NCBI RefSeq assembly: GCF_001458775.1
Contig: NZ_CZPZ01000002.1
Span: 62,001 to 126,000 of the forward strand
Direction of reading: 5' to 3'
Source: Candidatus Nitrospira nitrificans
GTDB taxonomy: Bacteria > Nitrospirota > Nitrospiria > Nitrospirales > Nitrospiraceae
DNA length: 64,000 nucleotides
The number at the start of each line of letters is the position of its first letter. The first letter of the stretch is position 1. The notes under the pieces were generated by a model that was not told where the DNA came from, searched no databases, and worked only from the letters and a program-made list of their open reading frames with translations. The position numbers and the translations under genes were made by a program. This document shows, piece after piece, positions 27,342 through 62,317 of this stretch.

Positions 27342-27487
27342 TTTCCCTCCCGCGCCACGGTTGCCGCTCTAAAAATTTCCGTGATAGGATGCGGCATCGC
27401 TGCTTGTTTACGCAGCGACCACGGTTGCACCAGGACCCCGATGGTCATGGTCGGGCGCGTGTGATGTCTGTTGAAAGGGAGGTCGTG

Positions 27488-28018
27488 ATGAGACGGCTTG
27501 CACGGGCGTTTGGGCTGCTGGTCTTCCCGGTACTCTGCGCGACACTGGTTTCGGCAGCGGGATTGTTCCAAGTAGGAGAAAAAGCTCCATCCTTCACTCT
27601 TACCGCCCTCACCGGTGAAACCCTGTCGCTCGAATCCTATAAAGGGAAAGTGGTGGTGCTGGGACTCTTTCATATCTGTGATCCATGCATGATCCAGGGG
27701 AGCGCCTTGCAAAAAGTCCATGAGTCGACACAAGGCAAGAACGTGGCCGTGCTGGGTGTCAATTCGTCAGGGAACTCTAAGCGAGAGGTCGGCGAATTCT
27801 TGTCCGGCTTCCCGGTCAAGGTCACCTATCCCTATCTGTTAGATCCAGCCAAGGTGACAGATAAGCTGTACGGTGGGGGAAAGTTTATTCCCAATGTGTA
27901 TGTGATCGACCAGCAGGGCGTCATCCGCTGGCAGCGAGTCGGCAATATGGACTTGGCGGGAGTCGACGTCATTCTGGCAGAAGTTGAGAAGCTATTGGCG
28001 AGCGGAAGTAAAATGTAA
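27488..28018 (+). CDS. Secreted thioredoxin-fold (TlpA/ResA-like) protein
   Basis: This protein of about 176 residues has a signal peptide ending near VSAAG. The AhpC/TlpA thioredoxin fold follows: GEKAPSFTLTALTGETLSL, then the redox pair in FHICDPCMIQG and a cis-Pro segment, KFIPNVYVID. The CDPC motif suggests periplasmic disulfide reduction or cytochrome maturation. GGGAGG lies ahead of the ATG. The stop codon's last base begins the palindromic element at 28018. Confidence 0.83.
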   Translation: MRRLARAFGLLVFPVLCATLVSAAGLFQVGEKAPSFTLTALTGETLSLESYKGKVVVLGLFHICDPCMIQGSALQKVHESTQGKNVAVLGVNSSGNSKREVGEFLSGFPVKVTYPYLLDPAKVTDKLYGGGKFIPNVYVIDQQGVIRWQRVGNMDLAGVDVILAEVEKLLASGSKM

Positions 28019-28137
28019 CGGGCGAGGACGGACGTTTCTCTGTGCGCGCTGACCGCCCGCCAAGACTCTATCGAATGTAGAAAGATGGCGGCGGTCCCTC
28101 AATGCGCGCAGTGAGAGGCACGTCCGTCCTCGCCCGT
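28018..28137. repeat. 119-bp family palindromic element, copy A
   Basis: ACGGGCGAGGACGGACGT (28018-28035) and its perfect reverse complement (28120-28137) close a 120-bp element. Inside, on the minus strand, CACTGCGCGCATTGAGGGAC and an inner stem match copies at 39709 and 53005. It starts on the last base of the preceding TAA and could act as a terminator. The outer stem differs in sequence from the other copies but is fully paired. Confidence 0.7.
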
Positions 28138-28175: not shown

Positions 28176-28415
28176 ATGGATGAGATGGAAGAGGGGAAAC
28201 AAAAGTTTTTAGAAGTGGTGCGGGACATTGACGGGTCGGTGCAAGTCGTGATTCCCGTCACGCCTTCCAACAGCATGTTCTTGATCTCGCTGACGAAGGG
28301 GCCCCATCGTAAATTCATCACCGTGCCGGAAGACGACATTATCGACTTGCCTCATGAAGCGAGCATCCGGACGAAAGTGACCAAGACGATCAAGGACGCC
28401 GTCGCGGCCCTGTGA
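28176..28415 (+). CDS. Small conserved-looking unknown protein
   Basis: This 79-residue soluble protein starts at an ATG with AAGAGG upstream. It has an even alpha/beta character (QVVIPVTPSNSMFLISLTKG) and ends in a basic helix, RTKVTKTIKDAVAAL. I do not recognise a family. It lies 48 nt before the four-gene overlapping cluster and may be its first gene. Confidence 0.6.
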   Translation: MDEMEEGKQKFLEVVRDIDGSVQVVIPVTPSNSMFLISLTKGPHRKFITVPEDDIIDLPHEASIRTKVTKTIKDAVAAL

Positions 28416-28463: not shown

Positions 28464-29066
28464 ATGAAACAAGTCCTGCCCGACATTTGGCAATGGTCGT
28501 GGTTTTCCGACGAGAAGCAGCTCGATTTCAATGGGCTGTTTCTGATGATCGGTGAACATAAGATCCTGGTGGATCCACCCCCGATGACGGGCGAAGCGAG
28601 AGCGGTTGTCCGCCGACATGAGCCGATCGACTACATCATCATCACGAACCGAGATCACATGCGAGAGGCGGCGGTCTATCAAGCAGAGTTCAGGTGTCAG
28701 CTGCGAGTGCCGGAAGCCGATGCCGCCCAGATGGATGTGACGCCCACGAAGACCTACAAGGACGGTGAGCTCTTACCCGGTGGGATGTGGGCGATCCATC
28801 TGAAGGATCAGAAGTCGCCGGGGGAATCAGCGTTGTTTATCGAGCGGGGCCGAGGGGTGCTGATCGTAGGGGATGCGCTGATCGGCAAGCCGCCCGGTTC
28901 CGTACGCCTGCTTCCTGTCGAAAAGTACGCGGACGTCCAAAAGGCCAAGGATGGGCTTTGCCGCCTCTTGAAGTACAACTTCGATAGCCTTCTTGTCGGA
29001 GACGGCGTCTCCATCCTTGCCGGTGGGAAACAGCAGGTGGAACAGCTCTTGTCGGTGGCGTCATGA
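28464..29066 (+). CDS. Metallo-beta-lactamase-fold protein with altered metal site
   Basis: This 200-residue protein has the MBL fold order: early strands with LDFNGLFLMIGEHKILVDPP, a central IIITNRDHMREAA, and late GVLIVGDALIGKPPGS. In active MBL enzymes the central motif is HxHxDH; here it reads TNRDH, so the first two histidines are missing while Asp-His stays. The Asp in VGDALIG is the usual bridging residue. Catalysis may be changed or lost. Its stop overlaps the TPR gene start by 4 nt. Confidence 0.72.
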   Translation: MKQVLPDIWQWSWFSDEKQLDFNGLFLMIGEHKILVDPPPMTGEARAVVRRHEPIDYIIITNRDHMREAAVYQAEFRCQLRVPEADAAQMDVTPTKTYKDGELLPGGMWAIHLKDQKSPGESALFIERGRGVLIVGDALIGKPPGSVRLLPVEKYADVQKAKDGLCRLLKYNFDSLLVGDGVSILAGGKQQVEQLLSVAS

Positions 29067-29890
29067 CAGTGCGGCACAGCCTATCCGAAGAATTGAATCG
29101 ACAAGGCAACGAGCATTTCTCACGAGGGTACTACACGGAGGCCTATACCTGTTACGCCAAGGCGTTGGAGTATGATCGTCTCACCGGTGATCAACGTGCC
29201 TTGGTCGCCACGCTCGGCAACTTGGGAAACATCTGTGCAGTCAGCGGACGGCGTGAGGCCGCCCAGGCGAATTATCAGGAGGTTTTGGAATTGCAAAAAG
29301 TCCTCGGTGATGAAAAGGGCATCGGGACGACGCTGGCAAACCTGGGGAACCTTCGGGCCGATGCGGGCGAATGGGAGCGGGCACGGGCGTATTATCTGGA
29401 GGCCCTCGATCTCATGACCAAAACGCATGATGAGCCGGCCCAAGCAGTCTTGTTTTCGGACCTTGGGTTGGTGGCTCGTGAAACCGGTCACTTCGAGGAA
29501 GCCATTCAGTTGTACGAACGGTCGTTGGAGTTGATGCGTCGGTTGGGTAATCTGGGCGGTGTTGCGGACGCCTGGCGCATGATAGGCCGCACATTCCTGA
29601 TGCAACAACGCTACGATGAGGCGACCGCCTGTTGCCAAACCAGTCAGTCGGTCGCCGAACGGTTGGGCGACGAGCTTCGTGTCGGGGGCGCCCGATACGT
29701 GATGGTTCAATGTTATGAGGACATGGGGCGTTTGCAGGACGCCGCGGATCTGCTCGAACAGGTGGTGCGCATGGATCGCAAGTATCGCCTGCCGAAACTG
29801 GAAGAAAACACGCAACGTCTACGCGCACTCCGCGCCCGTCTTGCCGATCCCTATCAGTCGCAATCTCATCATCGAGGGATGCAGGCATGA
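29063..29890 (+). CDS. Tetratricopeptide repeat protein
   Basis: This 275-residue protein is built of about six TPR units, for example NRQGNEHFSRGYYTEAYTCY, LGNLGNICAVSGRREAAQAN and LANLGNLRADAGEWERARAY. There is no signal peptide or catalytic domain, so it is probably a cytoplasmic scaffold. Overlaps of 4 nt with both neighbours tie it to the MBL-fold, unknown and methyltransferase genes. Confidence 0.82.
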   Translation: MTVRHSLSEELNRQGNEHFSRGYYTEAYTCYAKALEYDRLTGDQRALVATLGNLGNICAVSGRREAAQANYQEVLELQKVLGDEKGIGTTLANLGNLRADAGEWERARAYYLEALDLMTKTHDEPAQAVLFSDLGLVARETGHFEEAIQLYERSLELMRRLGNLGGVADAWRMIGRTFLMQQRYDEATACCQTSQSVAERLGDELRVGGARYVMVQCYEDMGRLQDAADLLEQVVRMDRKYRLPKLEENTQRLRALRARLADPYQSQSHHRGMQA

Positions 29891-30324
29891 CTGAGCCGGT
29901 TTCCCCCACCTGGATCCAGCTACGTGCCGATCTCCAGCGGTCTTTCCCCCAATTTTACGAATTGGAGCCGGAGGGTCCGCTCGTCATGGACCTCGGTGGA
30001 GACGGCTGGCTCTTAGAAGTCAGGCCGGACGGGAGAGTTCTTTGCCAGTATGGGATGGCGTTGGATGAGGTCATGGCGCTCATGTCGGAAGGCACGCCGG
30101 AGGACTTAGGGACCGACGAAGTCGCGAAACAGGCCAAGTACTTTCTCCAGCCGGCTGTCGCCAAATACCGGGCGCTCCTTCTTCAATCCGGGTTTGTTGA
30201 GGAGACCGAGATGACGGACGAGTTTGTGGCGATCACATTTGCGCGAGATGCGGATCTGCAGAATCGCGCCAAGCTGGACGATCTCCTCCGATGGTGTTGC
30301 AGGCAAATTGGACGCGCATCGTGA
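29887..30324 (+). CDS. Unknown 145-residue protein of the TPR cluster
   Basis: This acidic soluble protein has no recognised family. Visible parts are EGPLVMDLGGDGWLLEVRPD, a run with EVMALMSEGTPEDLG, and a C-terminal CC pair (RWCCRQIG). Both ends overlap neighbours by 4 nt (ATGA at the start, GTGA at the end), so its product is probably needed in fixed ratio with them. Confidence 0.62.
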   Translation: MTEPVSPTWIQLRADLQRSFPQFYELEPEGPLVMDLGGDGWLLEVRPDGRVLCQYGMALDEVMALMSEGTPEDLGTDEVAKQAKYFLQPAVAKYRALLLQSGFVEETEMTDEFVAITFARDADLQNRAKLDDLLRWCCRQIGRAS

Positions 30325-31388
30325 CTCGACGCATCACGACCTTCGACGAATTTCGGGAGGCCGTCTCAGCCTATCGCTTGCCGCGAGTATTGCTGGTTGC
30401 GCTGGAACTGGATCTCTTTACGGCCGTCGGCGACCGAGCATGGACGATCCCCGATCTCGCCAAGGAGCTCAAGGTCAGTGAACGGGGTTTGAGCATCGTG
30501 TGTCGTAACCTCGCAGCGGTCGGGGTATTGCGGAAAAAAGGAGACGGTTACAGGAACAGCCGACTTGGAGCGACGGCGCTGAATGCCGACCATCACGCCT
30601 ATCGCGGCGGCTATTTGAATTTGATCAAAAGCCATTGGGGGGACTGGATCCGGTTGTTGGAATCCGTGCGGAGCGGCTTGCCGATCGACCATGATGTCCC
30701 GGACGGTCCGGACTACCGTCGGCAATTCACCTGGGCCATGCACCACAGGACCTTGGAAATTGCCCCGGCCATTGCGGCGCAGATTCCGTTGGCTGATTCT
30801 AAAACACTGCTGGACCTCGGCGGGGGGCCAGGCACCTACGCCATGGCATTTCTCGCGAAGCACTCCATGCTTCGCGCCACTGTCTGCGATCGAGAGGCCG
30901 CGATTGACGTAGCGAAAGAAATCGCCGCCACTCACAAGGCGCGGCGTCGACTTTCCTATCTCCCGCTTGATTTCTGCACCGAGACTATTCCCGGCACCTA
31001 TGATGTGATCTGGTATTCGAATGTGCTGCACATCTATTCGCCGGAAGAGAACCTGGCTATTTTCCGACGAGCTCAGGCGGCATTGAGGCCCGGGGGACGA
31101 TTCATCATCCAAGACGCGTTTCTGCGCGATCGCGAAGGTCTGTACCCAGTGGAAGCAAGTTTGTTTGCTGTGTCGATGCTGTTGTTCACGCGAGGGGGGA
31201 ATACCTATTCCGTACTGGAAACTGCGAGATGGCTGAAGGAAGCCGGATTCGTCCGTGTCAAACAGGTCCCACTTAAGAAAGGGACGGAGGACTGGGAGGG
31301 CGGGATTCTGGAGGCGTCGGTCCCTGGTCCCCACCCAAAAACGACCGTCCGCCGAACAGGATCAAGCAGAAATAGAAAAGCCCGCTGA
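30321..31388 (+). CDS. SAM-dependent O-methyltransferase-like protein
   Basis: This protein of about 355 residues has an N-terminal winged-helix dimerisation domain (LDLFTAVGDRAWTIPDLAKE) and a C-terminal class I methyltransferase domain with motif I LLDLGGGPGTYAMAF and later LRPGGRFIIQDAFL. That plan matches small-molecule O-methyltransferases. The GTG at 30321 is chosen because it continues the 4-nt overlap pattern; the ATG at 30291 would overlap more. The 3' end overlaps the convergent membrane gene by 116 bp. Confidence 0.8.
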   Translation: MTRRITTFDEFREAVSAYRLPRVLLVALELDLFTAVGDRAWTIPDLAKELKVSERGLSIVCRNLAAVGVLRKKGDGYRNSRLGATALNADHHAYRGGYLNLIKSHWGDWIRLLESVRSGLPIDHDVPDGPDYRRQFTWAMHHRTLEIAPAIAAQIPLADSKTLLDLGGGPGTYAMAFLAKHSMLRATVCDREAAIDVAKEIAATHKARRRLSYLPLDFCTETIPGTYDVIWYSNVLHIYSPEENLAIFRRAQAALRPGGRFIIQDAFLRDREGLYPVEASLFAVSMLLFTRGGNTYSVLETARWLKEAGFVRVKQVPLKKGTEDWEGGILEASVPGPHPKTTVRRTGSSRNRKAR

Positions 31389-31674
31389 CTCCGTTGGCCG
31401 TCATCGAAACAATACCTTCCGCATCCCTTGCCGGCGTCTGAACGATCGTGGCGACGTCCATTGCCAACCCAACCGTGGCGTAGAAGACGCACACCACTGA
31501 GACCCATTGAAGTCGGAGCCAAATCAAAAGAGCGAGTACAAGAGGTATGAGAATGAAAAAGCCGATCTTCCAATCGATAACCAGCGGGGTGGAAGCGCCG
31601 CTCTGTACGAAAAGAAACCCTGCCTCAACAATGAGGGTGCTGAGTACCAGAGCCAGCAAGGGGCGTTGTTGCAT
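31273..31674 (-). CDS. Four-helix membrane protein
   Basis: This is a protein of about 133 residues with four predicted membrane helices (ALVLSTLIVEAGFLFV, IGFFILIPLVLALLIW, VVCVFYATVGLAMDV and GLFYFCLILF) and a Pro-rich cytoplasmic tail. The ATG at 31674 starts directly before helix 1; a TTG 12 codons earlier is less likely. The 3' end overlaps the methyltransferase gene on the other strand. Family not recognised. Confidence 0.6.
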   Translation of the reverse strand: MQQRPLLALVLSTLIVEAGFLFVQSGASTPLVIDWKIGFFILIPLVLALLIWLRLQWVSVVCVFYATVGLAMDVATIVQTPARDAEGIVSMTANGVSGLFYFCLILFGGRSFLGGDQGPTPPESRPPSPPSLS

Positions 31675-31757
31675 CCGGTTACTATAGACCGTCGAAGAAA
31701 AGTTCGGCAATGGGTGCCTTGTTGTCGTGACTATCTCAATGTTAGCTTGTTTCTACT

Positions 31758-32177
31758 ATGGGTACCGATCAGTCAGCGGATGGTCAATCGCCAGGGCAGG
31801 CCTGTCTTCTGCTGTACGATGGAGAATGTCGACTCTGCATTTTCGTGAAAACGAAACTTGAGCAACTACGAGTTGGTCAAGCAGGAACAGATATCAGATT
31901 CCTCACTTATCAGAGCGATGAGGCTCAAATAGCCCTGGGGCGAAAGCATCGTCCTGGTTGTCCTGCCGTGGCTTTCTTGATTCGACCTTCCGGAGAAGTG
32001 CTCCAGGGGCTCGACGCGTTTCTCCCTCTCGTCTCTACCCTGCCGGGTGGAAAACTCCTGCTGTGGTGGTTAAGGTTCCCTTCCGCAAAGCGGTTGGCCG
32101 AATGGGGCTATCGCATGATCGCGCGCCATCGGTATCGATGGTTTGGCGAAGCTAATCCCTCCATTCGACAAGACTGA
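31758..32177 (+). CDS. DCC-type thiol-disulfide oxidoreductase family protein (DUF393)
   Basis: This 139-residue protein has the family signature LLYDGECRLCIFVKTKL, with a CxxC pair, and RFLTYQSDEAQ. DUF393 proteins have a thioredoxin-like fold and are thought to be thiol oxidoreductases; substrates are unknown. The C-terminal half is rich in Trp and Arg. Nothing is missing. Confidence 0.75.
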   Translation: MGTDQSADGQSPGQACLLLYDGECRLCIFVKTKLEQLRVGQAGTDIRFLTYQSDEAQIALGRKHRPGCPAVAFLIRPSGEVLQGLDAFLPLVSTLPGGKLLLWWLRFPSAKRLAEWGYRMIARHRYRWFGEANPSIRQD

Positions 32178-39627: not shown

Positions 39628-39708
39628 CGTACCCCTCCCTTTCTTAAACTCTCTTTTCTCCAAAGAACGGCATTCAGGTTGGTTCCCCTGCGCCTTGCTT
39701 CCTCTCCC

Positions 39709-39827
39709 GCGAGGTGAGGGCGGTGGCCTCACCTGCGCGCATGCACCGAGCACCGCCCTTTGGTCTCCATACAATCAAGGTTGTGTGCGCGGTGCGCGAG
39801 CAACTGAGGGCAGCGCGCTTGCCTCGC
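39709..39827. repeat. 119-bp family palindromic element, copy C
   Basis: The 23-nt arms 39709-39731 and 39805-39827 pair with three mismatches plus two G-U pairs. Inside, on the plus strand, CCTGCGCGCATGCACCGAGC and GTGCGCGAGCA match copy B closely. It fills the gap between two divergently oriented minus-strand units, just upstream of the zinc-ribbon gene. Confidence 0.65.
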
Positions 39828-39831
39828 ATCC

Positions 39832-53004: not shown

Positions 53005-53122
53005 GGTTGCGTGTGGGAGAGGTTCCTGTGCTCGCGCATCGCGCACACGGGATGCTATTTGAATTGAAACTAGGGGCGGCGCTCGATGCATGCGCGCAGT
53101 GGGAACCCTCCCTCACGCAACC
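53005..53122. repeat. 119-bp family palindromic element, copy B
   Basis: The outer arms 53005-53026 and 53102-53122 pair over about 21 bp with one indel and few mismatches. On the minus strand the inside reads CACTGCGCGCATGCATCGAG, then GCGCGATGCGCGAGCA, close to copy C. It lies 8 nt after the first lipoprotein gene. Its stem has no likeness to copy A's stem although both pair. Confidence 0.68.
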
Positions 53123-53369
53123 TAAAAGCGAAGGATAAAGAATAGATTGATGTGTGGGTGGTGGTCGGTCAATGCGCGCAATAGAAACGACCTCGATGCC
53201 CAATCTGAGTGGCGAGTACATGAAGGGATGTGCTCGGACAGTGCGCGCAATGGAGCGTCCACCCGTCCGGTCTGGGGACAGAGAACTGTGCGCAATTGGA
53301 AAAATCTCGACATTTACTCCAAAGGGTGAGAAGTGAAGAAAAACAAAGAAATCACTTTTGGAGACGTCT
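53123..53369. repeat. Degenerate copies of the palindromic element
   Basis: Between the two lipoprotein genes, minus-strand reading shows TATTGCGCGCATTGACCGAC near 53165-53185, CATTGCGCGCACTGTCCGAG near 53232-53252 and a shorter TTGCGCACAG near 53284-53295. They look like partial or decayed copies. No gene is supported; the GGAG of the next gene is at the end. Confidence 0.5.
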
Positions 53370-61732: not shown

Positions 61733-62317
61733 ATGAACCCAAAAACTGAAAAGACAAAGATGCTGGCCGGCGAACTTTATCGCTCGGCGGATCCCGAACT
61801 TGTTGCGGATACCCGGCGGGCGCAGCGTGTGTTGACACGGTACAACGCGACTTCGGACGAGGAGACGGGCGAGAGAGCGACGATCTTACGCGAGCTCTTG
61901 GGCTCATTCGGCGACGGTGCGGTCATCAGGCCGCTCTTCGCCTGCGACTATGGCTATAACATCCGGCTCGGACGGAACGCCTTCATCAATTTCAACTGCG
62001 TCTTTCTCGACTGCGCGCCGATCGAGATCGGGGACAATCTTCAAATGGGACCGGCCGCGCAACTCTACACGGCGGCGCATCCGCTCGAGACGGATGTACG
62101 ACGATCCGGCCTGGAATATGCTCGCCCGATCCGCATCGGAAACGACGTGTGGATCGGAGGCGGCGCGATCATTCTTCCGGGCGTGACGATCGGCGACCGC
62201 AGCGTCATCGGCGCCGGGAGCGTGGTGGTGCGCGACGTCCCCGCGGCCAAGGTCGTCGCGGGTAACCCGGCTCGCATCCTTCGCGACCTTGAGGGGAGCA
62301 AAGATCCGGTGGTGTGA
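61733..62317 (+). CDS. Maltose O-acetyltransferase-like hexapeptide enzyme
   Basis: This 194-residue left-handed beta-helix acetyltransferase has LAGELYRSADPEL at its N-terminus, the catalytic His in YTAAHPLETDVR, and hexapeptide repeats IRIGNDVWIGGGAIILPGV. It transfers acetyl from acetyl-CoA to a sugar hydroxyl; the physiological acceptor is unknown. The 228-nt gap before it has no gene I can support. Confidence 0.88.
   Translation: MNPKTEKTKMLAGELYRSADPELVADTRRAQRVLTRYNATSDEETGERATILRELLGSFGDGAVIRPLFACDYGYNIRLGRNAFINFNCVFLDCAPIEIGDNLQMGPAAQLYTAAHPLETDVRRSGLEYARPIRIGNDVWIGGGAIILPGVTIGDRSVIGAGSVVVRDVPAAKVVAGNPARILRDLEGSKDPVV

Follow-up and report, generated by a model that had tools for sequence, protein, structure and literature searches.

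AmyR/YbjN proteins, which share their fold with class I T3S chaperones such as SycT, are said to act through protein-protein interaction, without enzymatic action, and the summary of that work gives no indication that AmyR takes part in secretion (PMC5398634); DR1245, a protein of the same fold, is reported to bind DdrB (PMC3575483). We have analysed a locus of Candidatus Nitrospira nitrificans encoding a protein (protein 3, P3; 145 aa) for which the same alpha-beta3-alpha-beta2-alpha fold is predicted and which, unlike the described proteins, lacks a Pfam match and is coupled to the gene for a TPR protein. The locus lies in a stretch of 64,000 nt (the window; contig NZ_CZPZ01000002.1 of assembly GCF_001458775.1, forward-strand positions 62,001 to 126,000). 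The window genome (G000, 4.1 Mb) is probably that of a complete ammonia oxidiser, since it is a Nitrospira with a PF02461 (AMO, AmoA-family) gene. Four genes follow one another on the + strand, for an MBL-fold protein (28464-29066), the TPR protein (29063-29890), P3 (29887-30324) and a SAM-dependent O-methyltransferase-like protein (MT, 30321-31388, a span that presumes a GTG start, there being an in-frame ATG at 30291), and their junctions are 4-nt overlaps reading, in order, ATGA, ATGA and GTGA. The original prediction had described this arrangement correctly, and its labels of MBL, TPR, unknown and methyltransferase agree with the Pfam scores, P3 having no Pfam family.

Absent from that prediction were three conserved neighbours, and on comparison of the loci the conserved unit reaches beyond the four genes. 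Upstream lie sml (28176-28415, +), encoding a 79-aa alpha/beta protein without a Pfam match that precedes MBL in Nitrospirales loci, and a gene for a TlpA/ResA-like thioredoxin (27389-28018, +; likely start ATG 27488) with a CxxC motif, an N-terminal hydrophobic stretch and a Pfam AhpC-TSA match of 69 bits. Downstream is a gene for a DCC1-like thiol-disulfide oxidoreductase (31758-32177, +; Pfam PF04134, 68 bits), which in other families is found close to P3 or sml. Convergent with MT is a small membrane-protein-like ORF (31273-31710, -) of conserved position. PADLOC defence profiles gave no match for sml, MBL or P3, the matches in the block being generic TPR ones and a single methyltransferase-type match (mads_2, 41 bits). 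Term searches of the open-library literature brought up no paper that we recognised as describing the cluster, or the hairpin family discussed below.

The module is widespread in the family of the window genome, where P3 was found in 110 of 117 genomes (89 of the 91 good ones), MBL in 113 (in G029 and G115 by distant match only) and an MT homologue, whether orthologue or paralogue, in 116. Of 295 sampled genomes from the phylum Nitrospirota, 101 have P3 by row count: 78/79 genomes of the same family, 17/18 of family f2, the only genome of f3 and 5/15 from other orders of the class, with none outside the class among the matches listed. The original prediction had proposed co-occurrence as a check, and the genes are indeed together elsewhere, sml-MBL-TPR-P3 being collinear in 51/54 named Nitrospira loci, 59/60 fetched loci of the family and 13/13 f2 loci, the last taken from among 17 matching f2 genomes. 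The three exceptions among the named loci are without an MBL match, L112 being cut by a contig end. In most of the loci fetched, sml is preceded by a TlpA-like gene. In the f3 genome (G336), TlpA-sml-MBL-TPR and P3-AKR-DCC (AKR, aldo/keto reductase, PF00248) occupy separate contigs, and the latter may be foreign to the bin because its P3 scores like those of the Nitrospira family.

Pfam and NCBIfam scans of P3 (E<=0.1) returned only DUF1885 (E=0.06), with no YbjN or T3S chaperone profile among the matches. The AF2 model of P3 (pLDDT 87.4; secondary structure H-E-E-E-H-H-E-E-H) contains the alpha-beta3-alpha-beta2-alpha arrangement and matches SycT with Z 7.6 (rmsd 3.8, 105 aligned), AmyR with Z 7.1 (rmsd 4.0, 116 aligned) and YbjN with Z 7.0 (rmsd 4.0, 116 aligned); among the first 35 VIA-align rows, 30 have titles that denote T3S chaperones or YbjN-like proteins. 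As every Z is below 8 and the best Foldseek E is 0.012, this arrangement may be a common one, and we infer from the model a YbjN/class I T3S chaperone-like fold for P3. P3 differs from those chaperones in having a loop and helix, around GTPEDLGTDE.AKQAK, that are strongly conserved (alignment A1). Alignments A1 (P3), A2 (MBL) and A3 comprise 38, 33 and 27 loci, respectively, from 38 chosen, plus the window. A TAL-effector match to P3 in a sequence search of the PDB (E 2.7e-6) was rejected as a repeat artefact, in which weak repeats were summed and no single stretch passed.

The product of the gene upstream of P3 matches Pfam TPR families, and its closest solved structures are designed TPRs and, among natural proteins, LGN/Pins (phmmer E 1e-20 to 1e-22 across about four repeats). 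LGN/Pins bind peptides; unlike them the present protein is bacterial, and the likeness may be no more than that common to TPRs in general. The window genome encodes a second, diverged homologue elsewhere (G000:C8:102073-102828), and similar ones occur in several relatives.

The overlaps had been taken to signal fixed stoichiometry, a claim that is not supported, on two counts. Firstly, with gene starts chosen by script, the 4-nt overlap is kept in 104/112 loci at the TPR-P3 junction, in 56/109 at MBL-TPR and in 66/99 at P3-MT, so that only the first of the three is conserved. Secondly, MT is repeatedly broken or deleted, as set out below. Moreover, overlaps alone do not show fixed stoichiometry because overlaps of 4 nt are not individually rare: a rough ORF caller detected them in 6 of the 37 co-directional neighbour pairs in the window (the P3-MT junction falls outside these six, the caller having taken the ATG start of MT). 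A fixed complex of all four products is therefore rejected, in view of the separable MT and by the presence of only one conserved overlap. TPR and P3 were also lost jointly once, in G300 (92% complete), which keeps TlpA-sml-MBL-MT, is missing P3 and has no TPR orthologue at E<=1e-40. Of the complex envisaged in the original prediction, what remains plausible is a pairing of TPR with P3; a four-part unit is not supported, MT being lost while the rest stays intact.

The best-supported core of the locus is TPR-P3 as a protein-binding pair. Our preferred reading, put forward tentatively and at somewhat under even odds, is that the cluster represents one form of an ancient module belonging to the class that includes Nitrospira, in which a client-holding TPR-P3 complex is tied to thiol redox and served by accessory enzymes, namely MT and, in some genera, the aldo/keto reductase. 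Our confidence in the module is high and that in its mechanism low; the complex, its client and its redox role are what we infer. TPR and P3 would form a cytoplasmic complex, the TPR groove would hold a client polypeptide, and the pair would hand it on for thiol-redox-linked maturation or quality control, the maturation role being suggested by the thiol-redox neighbours (TlpA/ResA-like and DCC1-like). MBL and sml might serve the same pathway by binding or processing one of its small ligands, and MT might modify a dispensable product or the client, roles in which we place these proteins by linkage only.

The gene sml and that for the PF14597 MBL-fold protein constitute a second linked pair. In a Pfam scan, MBL matched PF14597 (Lactamase_B_5) with 92.6 bits against a gathering cut-off of 28.4, and a single-sequence search of solved structures gave one match, 2P97, a PF14597 protein annotated as hypothetical, which aligns over residues 5-197 and has the site residues D, H, E, D and D in common with it. 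What distinguishes MBL from 2P97 is its place, beside sml and TPR, in an operon-like block that is conserved. Active hydrolases of the metallo-beta-lactamase superfamily carry the zinc motif HxHxDH, in place of which all 34 proteins in alignment A2 have TNRDH; the altered site reads TNRDH...GES...GDALIG...GDG in the window protein, and T61, N62, R63, D64, H65, E121, D137 and D180 are invariant (34/34). In a weak match to the paraoxonase structure 8zxg, the segments GDALIG and GHG of the latter lie opposite D137 and D180, and D180 would there occupy the place of a histidine. The original prediction had called this protein degenerate, and it was right that the metal site is altered; the putative site has nevertheless been kept, with no decay. 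For sml, which has no family in the Pfam scan, alignment A4 comprised 29 loci plus the window (L133 being left out for an in-frame stop). An AF2 model of sml (pLDDT 93.8) was compared with known folds, and the best Z of 5.6 (HPF, PI31 and similar arrangements) was judged uninformative as to fold identity.

The product of the fourth gene reaches the gathering scores of both Methyltransf_2 (60.7 bits, cut-off 22.3) and Dimerisation (40.3 bits, cut-off 25.6). It thus shares catalytic and dimerisation domains with O-methyltransferases such as SibL, RedM and MmcR (E down to 1e-23 for members of solved structure), and retains the motifs DLGGGPGT, which we take to be the SAM motif, and LHIYSPE. Unlike the Methyltransf_2 enzymes, including BchU, it falls far under every equivalog cut-off and is accessory in its block; its best NCBIfam match, to BchU (TIGR02716), a bacteriochlorophyllide C-20 methyltransferase, is of 56.4 bits against 276.1. 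The 28 loci of genus g18, in which sml, MBL, TPR and P3 are present, divide into 10 with an intact MT, 10 with a broken one, seven lacking it and one of unclear state, and in the remaining 44 tree loci it is intact in 42, absent from one and of unclear state in one; a call of 'intact' permits stops past residue 320. On the MBL+TPR tree, the state of MT changes at least six times while MBL, TPR and P3 stay open (L112, without MBL, lies outside the tree, and in L109 and L115 contig ends obscure MT). The losses include single-contig assemblies, with a fragment in G030 and absence from G072; that in G061 looks like one frameshift and may stem from faulty sequencing. MT is thus a dispensable accessory member. 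A tie of MT to complete ammonia oxidation was considered and rejected, as an AmoA-family gene was found in only one of 30 genomes searched, G000, and MT is not comammox-specific because 10 g18 loci with intact MT sit in genomes without that gene.

These findings also bear on a small-molecule product, raised in the original prediction and possible still, though not the best reading. A short pathway in which an MBL-like hydrolase is joined by tailoring enzymes, MT and, in some genera, AKR, with TPR and P3 as regulators, would fit an MT family of small-molecule O-methyltransferases with SibL, RedM and MmcR among the nearest, and G300, which retains MBL and MT without TPR and P3. It would fit, too, the AKR gene, which intervenes between P3 and MT in L100, L102, L108 and L112, is located after P3 in L109, L091 and L194, and is represented in L099 by a shortened remnant. 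However, AKR comes and goes beside P3 and is absent from most loci, 17 of the 28 g18 loci have a broken MT or none, with the rest intact, and no carrier, synthase or transporter is among the scanned neighbours in the window, so that we regard such a pathway as unlikely.

As purL and purF, whose functional connection to the block is not evident, also lie close to it in many loci, part of the synteny may be passive, and the close relatives all belong to one lineage. That the genes are merely vertically inherited neighbours of the purLF region, without a common function, nevertheless seems improbable: in g18 and other genera purF is several kb off or beyond the fetched stretch and the sml-P3 block is contiguous, TPR and P3 were lost together in G300, and other combinations of the same families adjoin one another in several other families of the class. 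Thus, f4 (G212) has sml-MBL on one contig and TPR-P3 on another; f8 (G242, G289) has DCC-sml-TPR-P3 with MBL elsewhere; G316 has DCC-sml-P3 and no TPR orthologue at E<=1e-40; and f9 (G256) has MBL-TPR with a 4-nt overlap and sml elsewhere, P3 not being found. In f7, the P3 and TPR matches are on different contigs. This re-meeting of the families in different pairs speaks for a functional link that goes further than the inheritance of gene order. The arrangements in f9, f7 and G316, and the separate contig of P3 in f3, tell on the other hand against the TPR-P3 reading. In f5, whose genomes here are without P3 and MBL, a homologue of sml adjoins an FmdE-family gene and a gene for an MFS-type transporter (L207:5357-7862, L208:3303-5794).

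A bolder form of the TPR-P3 reading, to which we attach only a small chance, is a dedicated, secretion-independent chaperone system of Nitrospirota, in which the T3S chaperone-like protein and the TPR scaffold would act as one unit on a thiol-redox or electron-transfer client, and MBL, its zinc site rebuilt with carboxylates, would be a ligand sensor. A role in tetrapyrrole (haem) handling, with MBL/sml and a BchU-like MT acting on a porphyrin that TPR-P3 would deliver, is very unlikely, as what recommends it, namely an MBL orthologue 32 nt upstream of hemE in G237 (f7), followed by ferrochelatase and flavin amine-oxidase-type genes (L204:5454-9549), BchU as best NCBIfam match of MT and the frequent service of TlpA-type thioredoxins in cytochrome maturation, is set against a single genome with that arrangement, a BchU match of 56 bits for a cut-off of 276 and an MBL that adjoins unrelated genes in other members of the class.

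The interval from TlpA to sml contains, directly 3' of the TlpA stop, a near-perfect hairpin of about 120 nt (28018-28137, +; MFE -83.2 kcal/mol, z -10.7), a member of a dispersed, covarying family. Hairpins of the same kind occupy this junction in many relatives, g18, with its gap of about 17 nt, not being among them, and the window has further copies at 53005-53123 (+) and 39707-39828 (-). A covariance model built from 18 TlpA-sml junction hairpins gave, with 150 candidates scored per genome and opposite-strand matches to one element possibly counted, 15 matches (E<=0.001) in G000, 26 in G005, 109 in G057, 82 in G009, 10 in G030 and eight in G002. In 47 copies, in an alignment fitted to the model and with G057 arms falling into visible subfamilies, standard pairs make up 93.4% of pair cells, both sides have changed in 370 cells (against a mean of 93 after shuffling) and covariation scores 0.675, compared with a maximum of 0.132 when the alignment is slid. 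In a rough ORF tally made by hand, 27 of 43 copies begin -15 to +25 nt from a co-oriented open-frame stop, and three have such a stop at the 3' end, from the other strand. Rfam has no family at gathering score at the window copy. REP elements are described as short palindromes with a common consensus, e.g. of 14-40 nt in Escherichia coli, and the same source tabulates N. moscoviensis among the genomes for which REPs are predicted (PMC12306157). Unlike these, members of the present family are about 95-150 nt long, with a conserved core and arms that are variable but complementary, and so fall outside the definition of REP elements; the REPs predicted in N. moscoviensis may overlap the family. 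The hairpins may have an RNA function or be a mobile palindrome.

Members of Nitrospira carry out nitrite oxidation and complete ammonia oxidation, and much of their conserved gene set is without an assigned role. The module centred on TPR-P3 is apparently old and uncharacterised, and P3 represents a protein family without a Pfam entry for which a chaperone-like fold is predicted. A near-universal module with a clear hierarchy, comprising a coupled TPR-P3 core, an sml-MBL pair and a disposable MT, is therefore a testable starting point.
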